Assembly (NCBI RefSeq): GCF_001939115.1
Contig: NZ_MQTZ01000050.1
Location: 1 to 64,000, forward strand
Length of the DNA: 64,000 bases
Source of the DNA: Leptolyngbya sp. 'hensonii'
GTDB lineage: Bacteria; Cyanobacteriota; Cyanobacteriia; GCF-001939115
Direction of reading: 5' to 3'
The notes beneath the pieces were generated by a model, which was not told the origin of the DNA, did not search any database, and was given only the letters and a program-made list of their open reading frames with translations. Of the stretch, positions 8,276 to 16,371 are shown piece by piece; the first letter of the stretch is position 1; the number at the start of each line of letters is the position of its first letter. Made by a program: the position numbers and the translations under genes.

Positions 8276-9337
8276 ATGTTGAAGCAAATTGCACAACTTG
8301 CAGTTTCAGGTCTCTTGTTGGGTACGATCGTCAGTTGCACAGCCAACCCGCCTGCTCAGGATAATGCCTCTCAACAGGCGAATGCCCAGGGCTCAACTGC
8401 TCCAAAAGGTCAGACCAAAAAGCTGACGGTTTACTCCGGGCGAGATGAGAAAATCATGGCTCCCCTGATTGAGAAGGCAAAACAGGACCTAAAAATGGAC
8501 ATCGAGGTCCGTTATGGAGATTCGACTGAATTGGCGATCGCGCTGACGGAAGAAGGGGCGAAAAGTCCAGCAGATGTCTTCTATTCCCAGGATTCTGGGG
8601 CCTTGGGTGCAGTGGCCAAAAATAACCTGACAGCGCAACTCCCTGATACCTTACTGAAACTGGTAGATGAGCAGTTTCGCTCCCCTGAGGGCAATTGGAT
8701 CGGGATTTCTGGGCGGGCTCGTGTGATTGACTACAACACCAAACTCATTAAGCCCAGCGAACTCCCTGCCAGTGTGATGCAGTTAACCGATCCCAAGTGG
8801 CGCGGTAAAGTCGGTTGGGCTCCCACCAATGGGTCCTTCCAGACTTTTGTTAGCGCCATGCGAGTGCTGGAGGGAGAGACTAAAACCCTGGCATGGTTGA
8901 AGGCGATGAAGGCCAATGGTGCGAAGAGTTACGAGGGAAATACGGCCATTGTAGAAGCTCTGGGTCGAGGAGAAATTTCCCTGGGGCTTGTGAATAACTA
9001 CTATCTATATCGCTTCAAAACTAAGGATGCCAACTTCCCCGTGGCCCTTCATCATACGCAGGGTGATGCAGGAGCGTTGATCAATGTGGCGGGTCTGGCT
9101 GTTTTGAAAACAACGGATCAATCCAGTGATGCTGAACAGTTTGTTGCCTATATGTTGAAGCCGGAAATCCAGCAATTTATTACACAACAGTTCTACGAGT
9201 ATCCCCTGGTAAAAGGGATTCCAGTGGCCCAGCAGCAATTGCCCCTAGATCAGTTGAAAGCTCCTAAACTGGATTTGAAAAAATTGGATGACTTGAAAGG
9301 AACCCAAAAGTTGATTCAGGAAGCAGGTCTTTTGTAA
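8276..9337 (+). CDS. futA: Ferric iron ABC transporter, substrate-binding lipoprotein (FutA/FbpA type)
   Basis: 353 residues. The N-terminus has a hydrophobic stretch ending in IVSC, a lipobox with Cys21, so the mature protein is probably a lipid-anchored periplasmic protein. The body follows the class I ferric-binding pattern: LTVYSGRDEKIMAPL at the start, YGDSTELAIALTEEG, ADVFYSQDSGALGA, and VNNYYLYR, in which Tyr242, Tyr243 and Tyr245 are placed like the iron-coordinating tyrosines of FbpA/FutA. It delivers Fe(III) to the permease encoded next. AAGGA upstream of the start is a usable ribosome site. The gene heads a three-gene transporter set; no convincing Fur box was seen in front of it. 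Confidence 0.9.
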   Translation: MLKQIAQLAVSGLLLGTIVSCTANPPAQDNASQQANAQGSTAPKGQTKKLTVYSGRDEKIMAPLIEKAKQDLKMDIEVRYGDSTELAIALTEEGAKSPADVFYSQDSGALGAVAKNNLTAQLPDTLLKLVDEQFRSPEGNWIGISGRARVIDYNTKLIKPSELPASVMQLTDPKWRGKVGWAPTNGSFQTFVSAMRVLEGETKTLAWLKAMKANGAKSYEGNTAIVEALGRGEISLGLVNNYYLYRFKTKDANFPVALHHTQGDAGALINVAGLAVLKTTDQSSDAEQFVAYMLKPEIQQFITQQFYEYPLVKGIPVAQQQLPLDQLKAPKLDLKKLDDLKGTQKLIQEAGLL

Positions 9338-9415
9338 GACTCAAGCTGTATAAATATGCTTTAAATTGTCATATTCCTGATCCTCTGCCTTCAGAAATCC
9401 ACGAACGGTCCCGCA

Positions 9416-11041
9416 ATGCACAAGCTCCCTCTATTTCTTGTGGCTACAGTAGCACTGCCTGCAGTAGCGATTATCTTGCCTCTTGCCTATTTGATTCTCC
9501 GCACGCTCAGCGTCAGTGGCGATCAATTAGTCGCGCTGATTCTGCGCCATCGCACGATCGAGATCATTCTGAATAGCGCTGGGCTGGCAATCATCACTCC
9601 TCTCTGTGCAACCTGCATTGCGGTGCCGATCGCGTTCCTGACCACAAGGACTGATTTACCCTGGCGACGATTCTGGTTAATTACCACGATTCTGCCTCTG
9701 GCAGTTCCGGATTATGTTATTTGCTTTGCCCTGATTGCAACTTTTGGGCCTAAAGGTAGCCTGCTGCAACACCTCGTCGAGCCTCTGGGGATTGAGGTTT
9801 TGCCAGAAATTTATGGCTGGCATGGGGCGATTCTGGCCCTAACGCTCATTACCTATCCCTATCTCCTCTTGAGCGTACAGGCGGGGTTGCAACGGATGAA
9901 TCCTTCTCTGGAAGAAGCGGCGCAAAGTCTGGGCCATGGTCCTTATGCCCGCTTCTTTCGCATTATTCTGCCCCAACTCAGTCCCTTCCTGGCTACAGGG
10001 GGATTAATCGTCGCCATGTATGCCCTGCAGGATTTTAGTGCAGCCACATTGATGCGTTTTGATGCCTTTACGCGAGCTATCTTCATCCAGTACCGTTACA
10101 CCTACGATCGCTACCAGCCCGCAGTGCTGGCTTTGCTCCTGGTGGGACTGATGATGTCATTTTTGTGGCTGGAACATCGGGTGCGATCGCGGGCCGCTTT
10201 TTTCACCCGAACGTCTACCCTCTGCTACACCCAGCCCCTGATTCACCTGGGATGTTGGAAACTGCCAGCTCTGCTATTTTGTTTGGTGGTTGTCCTGCTG
10301 GGTCTGGTTCTTCCCATAGGCGTAACCCTGTTCTGGTTTATTCAGGGCTTGACCCATCAGGGTTGGTCTTACGATATGTCTCCATTTTCTAAATTGATGG
10401 AACTGACCTGGCATTCGATTTGGGCAGCAGGCTGGGCAGCAGTTGTTTCCACCCTGTGCGGTCTGTCGGTGGGCATTCTGGCTGTGCGCTTCCCGCATGG
10501 GTTGACCACCCTGATCGAGCGTTGTAGCTACATTGGGTTTGGCTTGCCGGGGGTTGTCGTCGCTTTTTCGATCGTCTACTGGGGGGCAAACTATGCGCCG
10601 TCCTTTTACCAGACCCTGCCCATGCTAGTCTTCGCTTATCTGGTGATGTTTCTGCCCCAATCCGTGGGGACGATTCGCAGTTCTCTTTTACAGGTGAACC
10701 CACAACTGGAAGACTCAGCCCGCAGCCTGGGGAGGAATGCCTGGCAGACCTTCAAGGAAGTGACCTTACCGCTGATTGCGCCAGGAGTTTTGAGTGGTGC
10801 CGTGTTAGTATTTCTCACAGCCCTGAAGGAATTACCTGCAACCTTACTGCTAGCCCCGATCGGCTTTAATACCCTATCGGTCCACATTTGGAAATCAACG
10901 GAGAGCGTTTCTTACAGTGATGCGGCGGCTGGGGCACTGCTGATGCTCATGATTTCGCTGGGTCTAACCTTACCGCTGTTGTCTCAAAATAATTTGAAGG
11001 AATTACCTGCCGATACCATTCGATTAAGGGATTTTGATTAG
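9416..11041 (+). CDS. futB: Ferric iron ABC transporter, permease (FutB/FbpB type)
   Basis: 541 residues, almost entirely hydrophobic, with two permease halves as usual for FbpB/FutB. Each half carries an EAA loop that docks onto the ATPase: EEAAQSLGHGPYARFF in the first and EDSARSLGRNAWQTF in the second. About 12 membrane spans are expected. It forms the channel that moves Fe(III) from FutA into the cytoplasm. It lies between the binding protein (78 bases upstream) and the ATPase gene, whose ribosome site overlaps this stop codon, so the three genes form one operon. Confidence 0.9.
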   Translation: MHKLPLFLVATVALPAVAIILPLAYLILRTLSVSGDQLVALILRHRTIEIILNSAGLAIITPLCATCIAVPIAFLTTRTDLPWRRFWLITTILPLAVPDYVICFALIATFGPKGSLLQHLVEPLGIEVLPEIYGWHGAILALTLITYPYLLLSVQAGLQRMNPSLEEAAQSLGHGPYARFFRIILPQLSPFLATGGLIVAMYALQDFSAATLMRFDAFTRAIFIQYRYTYDRYQPAVLALLLVGLMMSFLWLEHRVRSRAAFFTRTSTLCYTQPLIHLGCWKLPALLFCLVVVLLGLVLPIGVTLFWFIQGLTHQGWSYDMSPFSKLMELTWHSIWAAGWAAVVSTLCGLSVGILAVRFPHGLTTLIERCSYIGFGLPGVVVAFSIVYWGANYAPSFYQTLPMLVFAYLVMFLPQSVGTIRSSLLQVNPQLEDSARSLGRNAWQTFKEVTLPLIAPGVLSGAVLVFLTALKELPATLLLAPIGFNTLSVHIWKSTESVSYSDAAAGALLMLMISLGLTLPLLSQNNLKELPADTIRLRDFD

Positions 11042-11051
11042 GAGTGGCCTG

Positions 11052-12080
11052 GTGATTTTGCATCTAGAGAACATCATACTACAATACCCCCATACCGAAA
11101 TTCCAGCAGTGGCAGGGGTGACCTTAACACTGGAAACGGGCACCATTATGGGATTGTTGGGGCCATCAGGTTGCGGCAAAACAACCTTGCTTAGGGTGAT
11201 TGCCGGATTTGAGCGATCGCAGGCAGGTAGTGTGATGATTGCAGGGCGGCTGGTTGCGGGTCGAAATACCTGGATACCCGCTGAGCAACGCCAGGTTGGT
11301 GTGGTCTTTCAAGAGTATGCTTTGTTCCCCCATCTCACGATCGCTGAGAACATTGCCTTTGGGTTAAAAGCAGTCAGTCGGAGCAATCAGCAGCAAAGAG
11401 TGGCTCAACTGCTGGCAATCATTGAATTGGAAGGGCTAGAACACCGTTATCCCTATGAACTATCCGGTGGACAGCAGCAAAGAGTGGCCTTGGCTCGCGC
11501 TCTGGCTCCTCAACCCAGGTTGATTCTGTTAGACGAGCCCATGAGTAATCTGGATGTGCATGTCCGGTTGAGATTACGGGAAGAGTTGTTGGAGGTTCTC
11601 AAAACCACAGAAACTTCAGCCATTTTTGTCACCCATGACCAGCAGGAAGCATTGTCGATCGCAGATCAGATTGCAGTCATGCACCAGGGAAAGTTGGAGC
11701 AGATTGGCACCCCTGAAGAAATTTATACCCAGCCAGCTTCCCGTTTTGTGGCTGAGTTTGTAACTCAAGCTAATTTTATCTCGGCCTATCGCCATGGTGA
11801 TTATTGGGAAACAGAAGTGGGTTGTTTTGATACCACCCTGCCCTGTTTAATTCATTCATCGATAAACTCTGGGGTTGCGGAGCTGGTCATTCGCGAGGAA
11901 GATTGGATTCTGCAACCAGATCCTGATGCATCAGTTATTGTCAGAACTCGACATTTTTTAGGCCGGGAATATCGCTACTGTTTGGAAACATTATCCGGCA
12001 GAAAAATATACGCCCGTACATCCCTTGACGTTGCTTTGTCCCCAACCACCCCAGTTCGGCTTCTAATTAACCGTTTATAA
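11052..12080 (+). CDS. futC: Ferric iron ABC transporter, ATPase (FutC/FbpC type)
   Basis: 342 residues from the GTG at 11052. A TTG at 11034 would overlap the permease gene and add six residues, but TAGGAGT at 11039-11045 is correctly spaced for the GTG. Walker A is GPSGCGKTT, the signature LSGGQQQRVALARAL and Walker B LILLDEP, followed by the switch histidine in FVTHDQQEA. The C-terminal ~100 residues form the regulatory region common to FbpC-like ATPases. It powers uptake of Fe(III) with FutA and FutB. The operon appears to end here; no clear terminator was found in the 210 bases that follow. Confidence 0.9.
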   Translation: MILHLENIILQYPHTEIPAVAGVTLTLETGTIMGLLGPSGCGKTTLLRVIAGFERSQAGSVMIAGRLVAGRNTWIPAEQRQVGVVFQEYALFPHLTIAENIAFGLKAVSRSNQQQRVAQLLAIIELEGLEHRYPYELSGGQQQRVALARALAPQPRLILLDEPMSNLDVHVRLRLREELLEVLKTTETSAIFVTHDQQEALSIADQIAVMHQGKLEQIGTPEEIYTQPASRFVAEFVTQANFISAYRHGDYWETEVGCFDTTLPCLIHSSINSGVAELVIREEDWILQPDPDASVIVRTRHFLGREYRYCLETLSGRKIYARTSLDVALSPTTPVRLLINRL

Positions 12081-12291
12081 ATAAATAACCTCAGAAGTTT
12101 GAGTCAAGGCATCCATCTGGCTCCAACTTTCCTCTTCCTGAAAGATTTTAGGAGGGAAATCAGGTTTACTCTCCCATTCCAGATTTGAAAAATTTTTCTG
12201 GATGATGCTGATTCTGCCAGAAATCTGGGTTCTATAAGTAGAATGCATCGCAATGAAATGTCACAAATGCCGGACATGTAGAGGAAAAGCT

Positions 12292-13989
12292 GTGAATCTA
12301 AGAAGCAAAATCATTTCCGGATACGTTTTGGCTCTGGGGATTGCTGTTATCGGAACTACTGCAGGCTTAGGGATCGGGAATCACTATGGCAGGCAAGCCA
12401 TCGTAGCCAGAGAACAGGCTTCCAGCATTCAAAGGCTACTCAGTAACCTGGAGGTTGACATTTTGACAAATCGACCCGCAAAAGAGTTATCCCCCTACCT
12501 CCAGCAACAAGAGGCTTTTCGCCGCAACGCCACCGAAATTACTCAACGGCTGGCAAACATTGAAGCTTCTCTATCCAGACATAACGCCGCTCTCCCCTCT
12601 TCAACCCTGTCTGAGCTGCAACCGGCGCTGGAAAAGGGTGAAAAAACCGTGACCCAATACATGCAAAAATTTCAGACCAGTGTTGCCCAGATTGACCGGT
12701 TGATTGGTGCGGGGCAGATTGCAGAAGCCCGGCAGGTCTTACTGGCCCTGGTTGGCAGCCAGGAATTCTCCCAATTTATCGGGCTGGCAGACCAGTTAAG
12801 ACGGTTCAATCCGGTTGTAGCCCAACAAGAAGATATGGCGAAAGCAGCCCTGGAGCGATCGGAAGTGCTGAGAAATCAGATCACAATCACGGGCTTACTG
12901 TTATCCATTGCGATCGCCGCTTTACTCTCTCTCTATCTCAGTCAGGCGATTACCCGTCCCATCAAGACCTTGACCCAAGTGGCACAACAGGTCACAGAGA
13001 CATCCAACTTTGAGTTGCAGGTCCCCATCACCACGCAAGATGAGGTAGGCATCCTGACCCATTCCCTGAATCATCTGATTCAATCGGTCAGACAACTCCT
13101 CCAGGAAAAACAGGTGGCGGCAGCCCATCTGGTTCAAACCGAAAAAATGTCCAGCCTGGGACAACTGGTTGCCGGTGTTGCCCATGAAATCAATAATCCA
13201 GTTAACTTTATTCACGGCAATCTGGCCCATGCTGATGAATACACCCAGGATTTACTCGGATTGGTGCGTCTGTATCGACAGCATTACCCCGACCCACCGC
13301 TGCTGATTCAGGAGACGATCGAGGCGATTGATCTGGACTTCCTGACCGATGACTTGACCAAGCTCCTGGAATCCATGCGGGTTGGGACCGATCGGATTCA
13401 CGAGATCGTGAAATCCCTGCGCAACTTCTCGCGTCTGGATGAAGCAGAGATCAAGGAAGTTAATTTGCATGAGGGTATTGATAATACGTTGACAATTTTG
13501 CATTATCGGTTGAAAGCAAGAGCCGATCGAGCAGGGATTCAGGTGATCAAAAACTATGGCGATTTGCCCTTGGTTGAGTGCTATGCAGGGCAGTTGAATC
13601 AGGTGTTTATGAATATCCTCTCCAACGCGATCGATGCCTTAGAGAGCCACCAGCCATCACCAGATTCTCCTCTCAAGATTCAAATTACAACTCAGGTGCT
13701 GGAGCAGGATTGGGCTTTAATTCAAATTACTGATAATGGTCCAGGCATGAATGAGAACGTTCGCACCCGGTTGTTCGATCCATTTTTCACCACGAAACCT
13801 GTCGGTAAGGGCACTGGATTGGGGCTATCGATCAGCCATCAGGTTGTCACGGAGAAGCACGGGGGTATTCTGGAATGTTACTCTGAACCCAATCAGGGCG
13901 CTGAATTCAGGATTAAAATTCCCATCCAGCAATTCCCTTCAGGTTCCAAACTGGTGGGCAGGGCACAACTTGCTTTACAGCCCGGTTGA
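12292..13989 (+). CDS. Membrane sensor histidine kinase
   Basis: 565 residues from the GTG at 12292, which has GAGGAAA at the right distance; an ATG at 12253 in the same frame lacks a ribosome site. Domains: membrane span near the N-terminus, a helical periplasmic sensor (~30-190), second span (~200-220), HAMP linker (TRPIKTLTQVAQQVTET), then HisKA with EKMSSLGQLVAGVAHEINNP, where His298 is the expected phosphorylated residue, and a HATPase domain with DNGPGMNE and GKGTGLGLSISHQ. No receiver domain or cognate regulator is adjacent. The kinase core is closely similar to that of the protein at 22757-24076, so the two share ancestry with different input modules. The signal is unknown. Confidence 0.85.
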   Translation: MNLRSKIISGYVLALGIAVIGTTAGLGIGNHYGRQAIVAREQASSIQRLLSNLEVDILTNRPAKELSPYLQQQEAFRRNATEITQRLANIEASLSRHNAALPSSTLSELQPALEKGEKTVTQYMQKFQTSVAQIDRLIGAGQIAEARQVLLALVGSQEFSQFIGLADQLRRFNPVVAQQEDMAKAALERSEVLRNQITITGLLLSIAIAALLSLYLSQAITRPIKTLTQVAQQVTETSNFELQVPITTQDEVGILTHSLNHLIQSVRQLLQEKQVAAAHLVQTEKMSSLGQLVAGVAHEINNPVNFIHGNLAHADEYTQDLLGLVRLYRQHYPDPPLLIQETIEAIDLDFLTDDLTKLLESMRVGTDRIHEIVKSLRNFSRLDEAEIKEVNLHEGIDNTLTILHYRLKARADRAGIQVIKNYGDLPLVECYAGQLNQVFMNILSNAIDALESHQPSPDSPLKIQITTQVLEQDWALIQITDNGPGMNENVRTRLFDPFFTTKPVGKGTGLGLSISHQVVTEKHGGILECYSEPNQGAEFRIKIPIQQFPSGSKLVGRAQLALQPG

Positions 13990-14079: not shown

Positions 14080-15333
14080 TTACTTGGTGGATGCTTCGAA
14101 TTTGGTGGTCGGTTGATCCAAGCGGATGGCCTGTTCCAGAGCTGCCCTTTCCTGGGCTCGCTGGACGTAGGGTTGTAACTGTTCCGGGGTGCAGCCACAG
14201 AGAATACTCAAACTATCCGGTGTCATTCCCCGCATCAGCATCTCCACGCGCCAGGTCTGCTGAGCCTGTTCGAGTTCAGGGGGCTGTCCCATGGGAGTCC
14301 GGATCTCGGCAGTAATCTCCTGCCAGCGAAAACGCATCTCAACCTCAGACAGGGGATGGCCATTTTCATTAATAAAAAGAGCAGGTTGGCTGTCCTTACG
14401 GGTTTTGAGCCATTGGGTCAGGGGATTGTTCGGGTAGGAGCCATAGCGATATCCCATAATCCATTGGTTCAGGGGAACCTGGCGGATCGCCCCCTGGGAG
14501 ATTTGCAGGACATGCTGTTGAGCATCATAAATCGCCTGTGATCGCTGGAGATTAGCCACCTCCCCCGCACTAAGACCTGTCCCAAACAGCACGTAAACCA
14601 GGGCATAGTTTTGGACTCCGGACTTACGGGCTTGTTGCAGGATCGCTCGCACCACTGGAGCAGGTAAATCCAGCACCTTGGACGCCAGATTGGCCTCCAC
14701 CCGAAGCAACCCATTGGAGGGACGAGGCGCAAGATCGCTGGCTGCGTCAGGCAGAAATAGCAGCACCAGATCTTTAATGAACTCCTCCCGATTGGGCCAG
14801 AGATAATGAAATTCCGTCGTAAACTCAACCACGGCATAACCCAGCAAGAGCGTGTTGAGTAACCCAGCCAGTTTGGGGGCCGTCAAGGAAGACTGCACCT
14901 GATCCCTGGCCATCACAGTCGCCAGATATTGGGTCGTGTAGTGATGGATCTGGGTCAACCCACGCCCGATCGCCTCCCGATTCTCAACCGGATAGTGACC
15001 TGCCTCCCCCACCAGCGATCGGACAAATTCTGGGATTTGCTCCAGAGCCTGTAAATGGCCCTGGGCATAAGCCTGTAACGCGGGGGCATATCCAGTGATC
15101 TGATGGGCCTGCCTGCCCAGGGCTTCTCCCAATTGGGTAAACACTTCAGCTTCCTCCAGCACGGCAAGAAGCAAGCCATGCTTGCTCCCAAAACGGCGGA
15201 ACAGGGTGACTTCATTCACTCCAGCCAGATCAGCAATCTGCCGAGTCGTTGTTTCTGTAACGCCCTGGCTAGCGAATAGCTGTAGTGCTGCCTCCACTAG
15301 CCGTTGTCGAGCAGATTTGTGTTGTGCGGCCAT
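14080..15333 (-). CDS. TetR-family regulator fused to a degenerate tyrosine-recombinase-like domain
   Basis: 417 residues from the ATG at 15333-15331. ATG codons further upstream (15360, 15417) fall in the operator/promoter region. Residues ~8-55 are a TetR helix-turn-helix (ETTTRQIADLAGVNEVTLFR), followed by a helical ligand domain to about 200. Residues ~221-401 resemble the catalytic domain of XerD-like recombinases: VYVLFGTGLSAGEVANL matches the box I region, and the end LCGCTPEQLQPYVQRA matches the LLGH...Y region. The box I arginine is replaced by Ser255, the HxxR histidine and arginine are not found and the last histidine is Cys; only Tyr389 lines up. It therefore should not recombine DNA. 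The gene is divergent from desC and probably regulates it and itself. Confidence 0.85.
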   Translation of the reverse strand: MAAQHKSARQRLVEAALQLFASQGVTETTTRQIADLAGVNEVTLFRRFGSKHGLLLAVLEEAEVFTQLGEALGRQAHQITGYAPALQAYAQGHLQALEQIPEFVRSLVGEAGHYPVENREAIGRGLTQIHHYTTQYLATVMARDQVQSSLTAPKLAGLLNTLLLGYAVVEFTTEFHYLWPNREEFIKDLVLLFLPDAASDLAPRPSNGLLRVEANLASKVLDLPAPVVRAILQQARKSGVQNYALVYVLFGTGLSAGEVANLQRSQAIYDAQQHVLQISQGAIRQVPLNQWIMGYRYGSYPNNPLTQWLKTRKDSQPALFINENGHPLSEVEMRFRWQEITAEIRTPMGQPPELEQAQQTWRVEMLMRGMTPDSLSILCGCTPEQLQPYVQRAQERAALEQAIRLDQPTTKFEASTK

Positions 15334-15342
15334 AGGAATAAT

Positions 15343-15359
15343 TGCAAGTTGCACTTGCA
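15343..15359. promoter_or_regulatory. Operator-like palindrome 1 (tetR side)
   Basis: TGCAAGT-TGC-ACTTGCA, a perfect 7-bp inverted repeat with a 3-base spacer, immediately upstream of the chosen start of the TetR-recombinase fusion. It overlaps the likely transcription start of that gene: on the minus strand TTGACC lies upstream and TAAAAT just before the palindrome. A 17-bp palindrome is the usual size for a TetR-family operator, so autoregulation is inferred. Confidence 0.7.
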
Positions 15360-15389: not shown

Positions 15390-15406
15390 TGTAAGTATTA
15401 CTTGCA
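15390..15406. promoter_or_regulatory. Operator-like palindrome 2 (desC side)
   Basis: TGTAAGT-ATT-ACTTGCA, the same palindrome as at 15343-15359 with one arm mismatch; the centres are 47 bp apart. On the plus strand it overlaps a plausible -10 (TATTAC) of a promoter with TTGTTA as -35, about 100 bases before desC. Binding here would block desC transcription. The shared sequence is direct; the regulator assignment is inference from position. Confidence 0.65.
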
Positions 15407-15513
15407 TCCGATGTCATCTTCCGACGTCATGGATTGAGACTGGACGAACTGGAGATGGGGCAGCTCTGAATCAGGCAGTAACCAGGATGCAGGTTTTCAA
15501 ATAAGGAAGGTTT

Positions 15514-16371
15514 ATGACTTCAAATATCTCAAATACTGGTTCGACATCCTCTGAGTTGCCGCCTCTAGACTGGGTGAGTGTGGGCTTTTTTGGAGTTATT
15601 CACGCTATAGCGTTCACAGCTCCTCTGTTCTTTTCCTGGTCTGCTCTGGGAGTGATGGTTATCCTGCACTGGTTGTTTGGTAGTGTGGGGATCTGTCTGG
15701 CCTATCATCGGCTACTGACCCACCGGAGTCTCCAGGTGCCCCAGTGGTTAGAGTATATCCTGGCCACGATCGGGGCGATGGCGTTGCAGGGAGGTCCAAT
15801 CTTCTGGGTTGCCGGACACCGTCAGCATCACTTGCATACGGAAGACAGGGATAAGGATCCCTATGCAGCCAGTCGGGGCTTCTGGTGGAGCCACATGCTC
15901 TGGCTGTTTTATCCTCGCCAGGAGTTTTTCGATCGAGAAACCTATCGCAAGTTCGCGCCTGATCTGGCCCGTGACCCCTATTATAACTGGCTCGATCGCT
16001 ACTTCCTCTTACTGCAACTTCCCCTGGGTCTGCTGCTGTACGCCCTGGGAGGGTGGTCCTTTGTCATCTACGGCATGTTCCTGCGCGCCGTATCCCTCTG
16101 GCACAGTACCTGGCTGATTAACTCAGCCACCCATGCCTGGGGTAACCGCACTTTTCATGTCGAAGATAGCTCTCGCAATCTCTGGTGGGCTGCCATTCTG
16201 ACCTATGGTGAAGGCTGGCACAATAATCACCATGCCTATCCCAATGTCGCCAAGGCTGGCTGGAAATGGTGGCAGTTGGATATGACCTGGTGGGTAATCA
16301 AGGGATTGGCTGTTATGGGGCTGGCTCGGCGCATTATTCTTCCCCCAACCGAAGCCATCAGCGAACTTTGA
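15514..16371 (+). CDS. desC: Acyl-lipid / acyl-CoA delta-9 desaturase
   Basis: 285 residues. The three histidine boxes of membrane di-iron desaturases are complete: HRLLTH (His65, His70), HRQHH (His102, His105, His106) and HNNHH (His236, His239, His240). Four hydrophobic spans surround them. The DesC/OLE1-type spacing and motifs such as GEGWHNNHHAYP point to a delta-9 desaturase that introduces the first double bond into membrane acyl chains, important for membrane fluidity at low temperature. AAGGAAGG precedes the ATG. The divergent TetR-type gene and two palindromes suggest dedicated transcriptional control, analogous in logic to DesT/FabR systems. Regiospecificity is inferred from the family. 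Confidence 0.88.
   Translation: MTSNISNTGSTSSELPPLDWVSVGFFGVIHAIAFTAPLFFSWSALGVMVILHWLFGSVGICLAYHRLLTHRSLQVPQWLEYILATIGAMALQGGPIFWVAGHRQHHLHTEDRDKDPYAASRGFWWSHMLWLFYPRQEFFDRETYRKFAPDLARDPYYNWLDRYFLLLQLPLGLLLYALGGWSFVIYGMFLRAVSLWHSTWLINSATHAWGNRTFHVEDSSRNLWWAAILTYGEGWHNNHHAYPNVAKAGWKWWQLDMTWWVIKGLAVMGLARRIILPPTEAISEL

Follow-up and report, generated by a model that had tools for sequence, protein, structure and literature searches.

A TetR-type regulator carrying a catalytically inactive tyrosine-recombinase domain beside a fatty acid desaturase gene in cyanobacteria

The window, that is, the whole stretch of DNA that was analyzed, comprises 64,000 nucleotides from Leptolyngbya sp. 'hensonii' (contig NZ_MQTZ01000050.1, positions 1 to 64,000). 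Its minus strand carries a gene for a TetR-type protein fused to a domain of the tyrosine-recombinase type. A fatty acid desaturase gene diverges from this fusion gene, and two candidate operators lie between them. On the other side of the fusion gene, positions 8276-12080 encode a binding protein, a permease, and an ATPase with the ordinary look of an iron(III)-type ABC transporter operon, after which comes a histidine kinase gene (12253-13989). The features of the locus are as follows:

14080..15333, minus strand: TetR-recombinase fusion gene, 417 amino acids plus stop (open frame, translation, Pfam TetR_N and Phage_integrase)
15154..15312, minus strand: TetR helix-turn-helix, residues 8-60 (Pfam TetR_N at 12-58, E 5.9e-14)
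14743..15153, minus strand: TetR ligand-binding/dimerization domain, residues 61-197 (AlphaFold, Foldseek matches to TetR structures)
14677..14742, minus strand: flexible linker, residues 198-219 (pLDDT <50 at 198-216, variable length, high dN/dS)
14113..14676, minus strand: inactive tyrosine-recombinase catalytic-type domain, residues 220-407 (PF00589, profile, AlphaFold, Foldseek, low dN/dS)
14167..14169, minus strand: codon of Tyr389, which occupies the nucleophile position of recombinases
15343..15359, no strand: proximal candidate operator TGCAAGTTGCACTTGCA (TGCAAGT-TGC-ACTTGCA), a perfect palindrome conserved across loci
15390..15406, no strand: distal candidate operator TGTAAGTATTACTTGCA (TGTAAGT-ATT-ACTTGCA), 47 bp from the proximal one, the pair being conserved
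15514..16371, plus strand: divergent gene for a fatty acid desaturase of the delta-9 / DesC type, proposed as the target (Pfam FA_desaturase, E 3e-23)

A preliminary description made from the DNA letters had reported a TetR regulator joined to a dead recombinase domain. Rechecking of the open frame and its translation confirmed the reading frame, strand, and coordinates given there. The start codon at 15333 is favored by the starts of 43 homologues, which align at this position. A longer open reading frame beginning at 15417 is disfavored because the proximal operator would then fall within the gene. The TetR helix-turn-helix and ligand domain were also borne out: the TetR_N match scores 52 bits against a cut-off of 24 and is present in all 43 homologues, and AlphaFold places helices at residues 64-193, forming an all-helical TetR ligand/dimerization domain whose Foldseek matches are TetR structures including PfmR, FadR, and DesT (3lsj). 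Across the family the linker ranges from 7 to 77 residues. Since it is both disordered in the prediction and variable in length, the recombinase domain behind it can be regarded as a tethered module. In the full-length AlphaFold model (pTM 0.52) the mutual orientation of the TetR and recombinase halves is not confidently predicted.

The recombinase fold of the C-terminal domain is supported by several methods, among them the structure prediction and PF00589 search that the preliminary description had proposed. The Phage_integrase profile PF00589 matches residues 226-343 with an E value of 1.3e-6 and 28.7 bits, above the curated cut-off of 27.1, and it matches 32 of the 43 homologues at E <= 0.01 (best 1.2e-11). 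These homologues, non-redundant and drawn from cyanobacterial genomes, make up the family alignment A1; a profile of its C-domain part (A2) finds XerA of P. abyssi at E 1.8e-9, followed by Tn1549 Int and XerD. The AlphaFold2 model of the isolated C-domain (pLDDT 94.6, pTM 0.89) was matched by Foldseek to XerA (TM 0.73, E 9e-9) and also to Tn1549 Int, XerH, Cre, and lambda Int, and its 50 best fold matches in the PDB are all tyrosine recombinases. A chance resemblance to recombinases is ruled out by the A2 profile, the AlphaFold2 model, and these Foldseek matches. The C-domain of the fusion derives from Xer-type recombinases and has in common with XerA, XerD, and XerH its catalytic-domain fold, a recognizable box I and C-terminal Tyr helix, and the tyrosine itself. 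Unlike them, it lacks all the other catalytic residues, is attached to a TetR protein, and has no N-terminal core-binding domain; the C-domain begins at about residue 220, straight after the linker.

The profile alignment and the column counts agree with each residue assignment made earlier: Ser255 in box I, no HxxR pair, Cys381 at the last histidine, and only Tyr389 retained. At the box I arginine position serine is found in 33 of 43 homologues and arginine in 2. The HxxR pair is represented by E355 and Q358 when aligned to XerA. Arginine at position 358 persists in 5 of 43 homologues, including all three members of a deep lineage (L091-L093), and the histidine that follows the pair is either Gln or His across the homologues. 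The last His/Trp position (Cys381) is Trp in 11 of 43, and the catalytic hairpin is devoid of lysine. The scattered survival of these residues suggests an enzyme that was once active and decayed gradually. Tyr389 is invariant in all 43 non-redundant homologues, as would be expected of an active recombinase that inverts or excises DNA at the locus. Nevertheless, the box I arginine, both HxxR residues, and the last His/Trp are gone here, the full catalytic set is kept in none of the 43 sampled homologues, and gene orientation is constant in every non-redundant locus surveyed. Catalytic residues and constant orientation together rule out an active recombinase or an invertible promoter, and we give this reading practically no chance. 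The idea of a catalytically dead recombinase fold within a TetR-type regulator is upheld and extends across cyanobacteria, and the best reading of the protein is a TetR-type regulator with a domesticated recombinase tail.

Loss of catalysis was not accompanied by loss of constraint. Median dN/dS (Nei-Gojobori, taken over related pairs that are not independent of one another) was 0.036 for the helix-turn-helix, 0.039 for the ligand domain, 0.81 for the linker, and 0.146 for the recombinase domain. The recombinase domain is constrained by purifying selection, less so than the TetR half. Its conservation peaks at segment 284-314, the HxxR-equivalent helix, and the C-terminal Tyr helix, where 11 of 24 positions are conserved at 90% or more, and it includes a nearly invariant, family-specific segment (NQWIxGKRYGSYTxNPLTxWLKSRKD). 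The missing catalytic residues, a rate of evolution about four times that of the TetR half, and the loss of the domain in the genus of L094 and L233 would all suit a decaying relic without function. Such a relic is nonetheless very improbable given a dN/dS well under that of the linker and 22 invariant C-domain positions across 43 divergent sequences.

Delta-9 desaturases help to set membrane fluidity in cyanobacteria. In 86 of 87 loci the regulator gene has a desaturase gene next to it in divergent orientation; the remaining locus (L100) holds a distant TetR paralogue. The preliminary description had called for a survey of such fusions and their neighbors across cyanobacteria; the survey made here located the fusion in 41 of 386 sampled genomes, with one high-scoring copy each, and found the desaturase divergent, adjacent, and in constant orientation in 40 of 40 non-redundant fusion loci. 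The other neighbors of the pair vary between loci, and no conserved third gene was found among the loci surveyed. The pair also occurs on a plasmid of Gloeothece. On this mobilizable 29 kb element (plasmid pP742403 of Gloeothece citriformis, L221), both operators accompany the desaturase and regulator genes, and neighboring genes encode a light-harvesting-like protein and a protein with an orange carotenoid protein domain. In one relative, the gene for the other delta-9-type desaturase (272 amino acids) comes just before a further desaturase gene, this one of the desA type. As it is this other copy that precedes the desA-type gene, the linked desaturase is a separate type of about 285 amino acids. 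By length, this type corresponds to all4991 of Anabaena PCC 7120 (PMC2593844). The linked desaturase thus appears to match all4991, whose transcript is reported to be lower in a sigE mutant (PMC4390870), and it may fall in the DesC2 (sn-2) group (PMC4390868).

Two copies of a predicted operator with the consensus TGCAAGT-N3-ACTTGCA lie between the divergent genes. Allowing <=3 mismatches, a pair 44-53 bp apart was found in 42 of 43 non-redundant loci, with 37 of the 42 spaced by 46-48 bp, and in none of 860 shuffled sequences. The strict core has a chance expectation of 0.02 occurrences in the window, and in the 5.94 Mb genome it occurs only at these two sites, with a single 1-mismatch site elsewhere. 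In the genomes of relatives, extra strict matches were about as frequent as those of a reversed-pattern control. A larger regulon was rejected on these control-level matches and the lone 1-mismatch site, and from sequence the regulator seems to serve its own locus alone. Most loci (e.g., L120, L118, and L094) conserve two further intergenic sequences, probably promoter elements: one resembling TTACAGT next to the distal operator, which the window itself lacks, and a TAACA sequence between the two operators.

Desaturase linkage and paired operators, both missing from the preliminary description, together name a likely regulatory target. Only 10 bp separate the proximal operator from the start codon of the regulator gene, which would also agree with a regulator that acts only on itself or on other genes and has the desaturase as a passenger neighbor. 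We consider a passenger quite improbable, because the desaturase adjoins in every non-redundant locus surveyed despite differing other neighbors, the two genes move together even on a plasmid, and none of the other desaturase copies tested has the operator.

Relatives without the recombinase domain help to assign the operators to one half of the protein. The TetR part stands alone in L094 and L233, which belong to one genus, and in seven genomes of family f26. L094, L098, and L099, which lack the domain, occupy the same desaturase locus, and all domain-less cases keep the palindrome TGCAAGT-N3-ACTTGCA. Because these relatives carry the same palindrome, it is most likely the TetR half that reads the operator. 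In f26, six genomes belonging to one genus carry one operator each, while two operators are found without the domain in L256 (f26), L094, and L233. Operator pairing is therefore independent of the recombinase domain and was dropped as a hallmark of it. Apparent domain loss in L249 and L250 was not counted, since parts of the domain are readable beside broken frames in fragmented assemblies, where frame errors are likely. A related TetR paralogue family without the domain (L100 and L162-L168) is about 30-34% identical. In L100, an operator-like palindrome with a 4-base spacer lies upstream, and the next gene resembles an HlyD-type efflux component.

The clade that bears the domain (support 96/89 in the TetR tree) includes L094 and has f26 as its sister. 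The simplest history is one gain of the domain after the f26 split and one later loss, for which the evidence is moderate, as the root rests on long branches. A single acquisition of the domain early in the evolution of cyanobacteria is probable. Among up to 8 scored candidates per genome in 386 genomes it has no close unfused relative; E values jump from 2e-69 to 3e-9, where the matches are proteins of ordinary recombinase length. A scan of viral contigs and of 50,697 phage records gave no relative that could be a phage or viral source, and the single plasmid match is the desaturase-regulator unit itself. One fusion beside a desaturase comes from a metagenome-assembled genome labelled Chloroflexaceae (L036, JAAUTE010000129.1); it nests among cyanobacteria in the tree, and either misbinning of a cyanobacterial contig or recent transfer is the probable explanation. 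The genome of L088 (G308) has 39 Phage_integrase matches at E <= 1e-10, compared with 2 to 11 in the other seven searched.

Taken together, a somewhat probable reading is that of a dedicated, autoregulated factor for the adjoining delta-9-type desaturase, with a domesticated recombinase domain for which assembly is the favored role. The TetR half would dimerize and bind the palindrome at both sites between the divergent genes, and the dimers would thus control the regulator and desaturase promoters together. Control would probably be by repression relieved by a fatty-acyl signal, as is usual for TetR regulators of lipid genes. The conserved C-terminal Tyr helix may make protein contacts that join or stabilize the TetR dimers on the two operators, or it may bind a partner.

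For the recombinase domain itself, for which the preliminary description had suggested a second DNA contact or oligomerization, a role in assembly or protein contact is proposed tentatively. It is favored by the good conservation of the C-terminal segment, by the missing core-binding domain, and by the failure to find a cis-site specific to the domain, as the operator is shared with domain-less relatives. In recombinases, the C-terminal segment links protomers. Counting against assembly, relatives that lack the domain (L094, L233, and L256) have paired operators too, and segment 284-314, the most conserved part of the domain, is not known as an assembly surface. Nor does the spacing of 46-48 bp obviously favor plain side-by-side contact: at about 4.5 helical turns, two dimers would sit on roughly opposite faces of the DNA.

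The recombinase fold is a DNA-binding fold, and a flexible tether would suit a second DNA-contact module that adds affinity, bending, or looping near the operators. Conserved basic residues (K236/K237, R264, R284, R296, K310, R312, K313, R368, R392, and K396) point the same way. By a crude comparison, the median net charge of the domain is +3, against +8 for 13 ordinary recombinases (range -2 to +20). However, the fusion is without a core-binding domain, and no cis-element was seen that is specific to loci with the domain, the TTACAGT-like element being present in domain-less L094 as well; a second DNA contact is accordingly doubtful. The domain could instead serve to sense or dock another protein or a ligand rather than to assemble the regulator itself. 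There is a precedent in TnsF, in which the catalytic-domain remnant of an inactivated recombinase domain is reported to contact TniQ (PMC10293859), and the nearly invariant family-specific segment could be such a site, but no conserved third gene at the locus would encode the partner, and we think docking unlikely. To return to assembly, a bolder version is that the domain was captured once by a desaturase-linked TetR and is now an assembly or looping module, so that dimers on the paired operators form a higher-order desaturation switch. This picture is speculative and doubtful in its entirety.

The preliminary description knew of no system of this kind, and no description of a TetR-recombinase regulator was found in the literature searched; most subscription journals lay outside its coverage, which makes this weak evidence of novelty. 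The same literature yielded no dedicated regulator of cyanobacterial delta-9 desaturases, of the TetR type or otherwise. The locus offers a candidate desaturase regulator with a precise operator in many lineages. It also provides a natural series in which TetR alone and TetR with a dead recombinase domain occur with the same gene and operator, and this series could reveal what a transcription factor gains from a domesticated recombinase fold. If the bolder version above is true, a bacterial transcription factor has been built from a domesticated recombinase.

Among known systems, DesT of Pseudomonas and FabR of E. coli are TetR-family regulators of unsaturated fatty acid synthesis. The fusion is similar to them in being of the TetR type, in its proposed target, a desaturase or unsaturated fatty acid gene, and in its local, palindromic candidate operators. 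It differs in its 190-residue recombinase-derived domain and in its operator sequence, and it is not a FabR equivalog, scoring 29.9 bits with that model against a cut-off of 151. Reuse of an inactivated tyrosine-recombinase domain to bind DNA or protein is known from yeast Ndc10 and crypton-derived proteins. It is also seen in TnsF of Tn6022-like transposons (PMC10293859). These proteins act in transposon targeting or at centromeres, or are eukaryotic, in contrast to the fusion, a bacterial TetR regulator that stands beside a metabolic gene.
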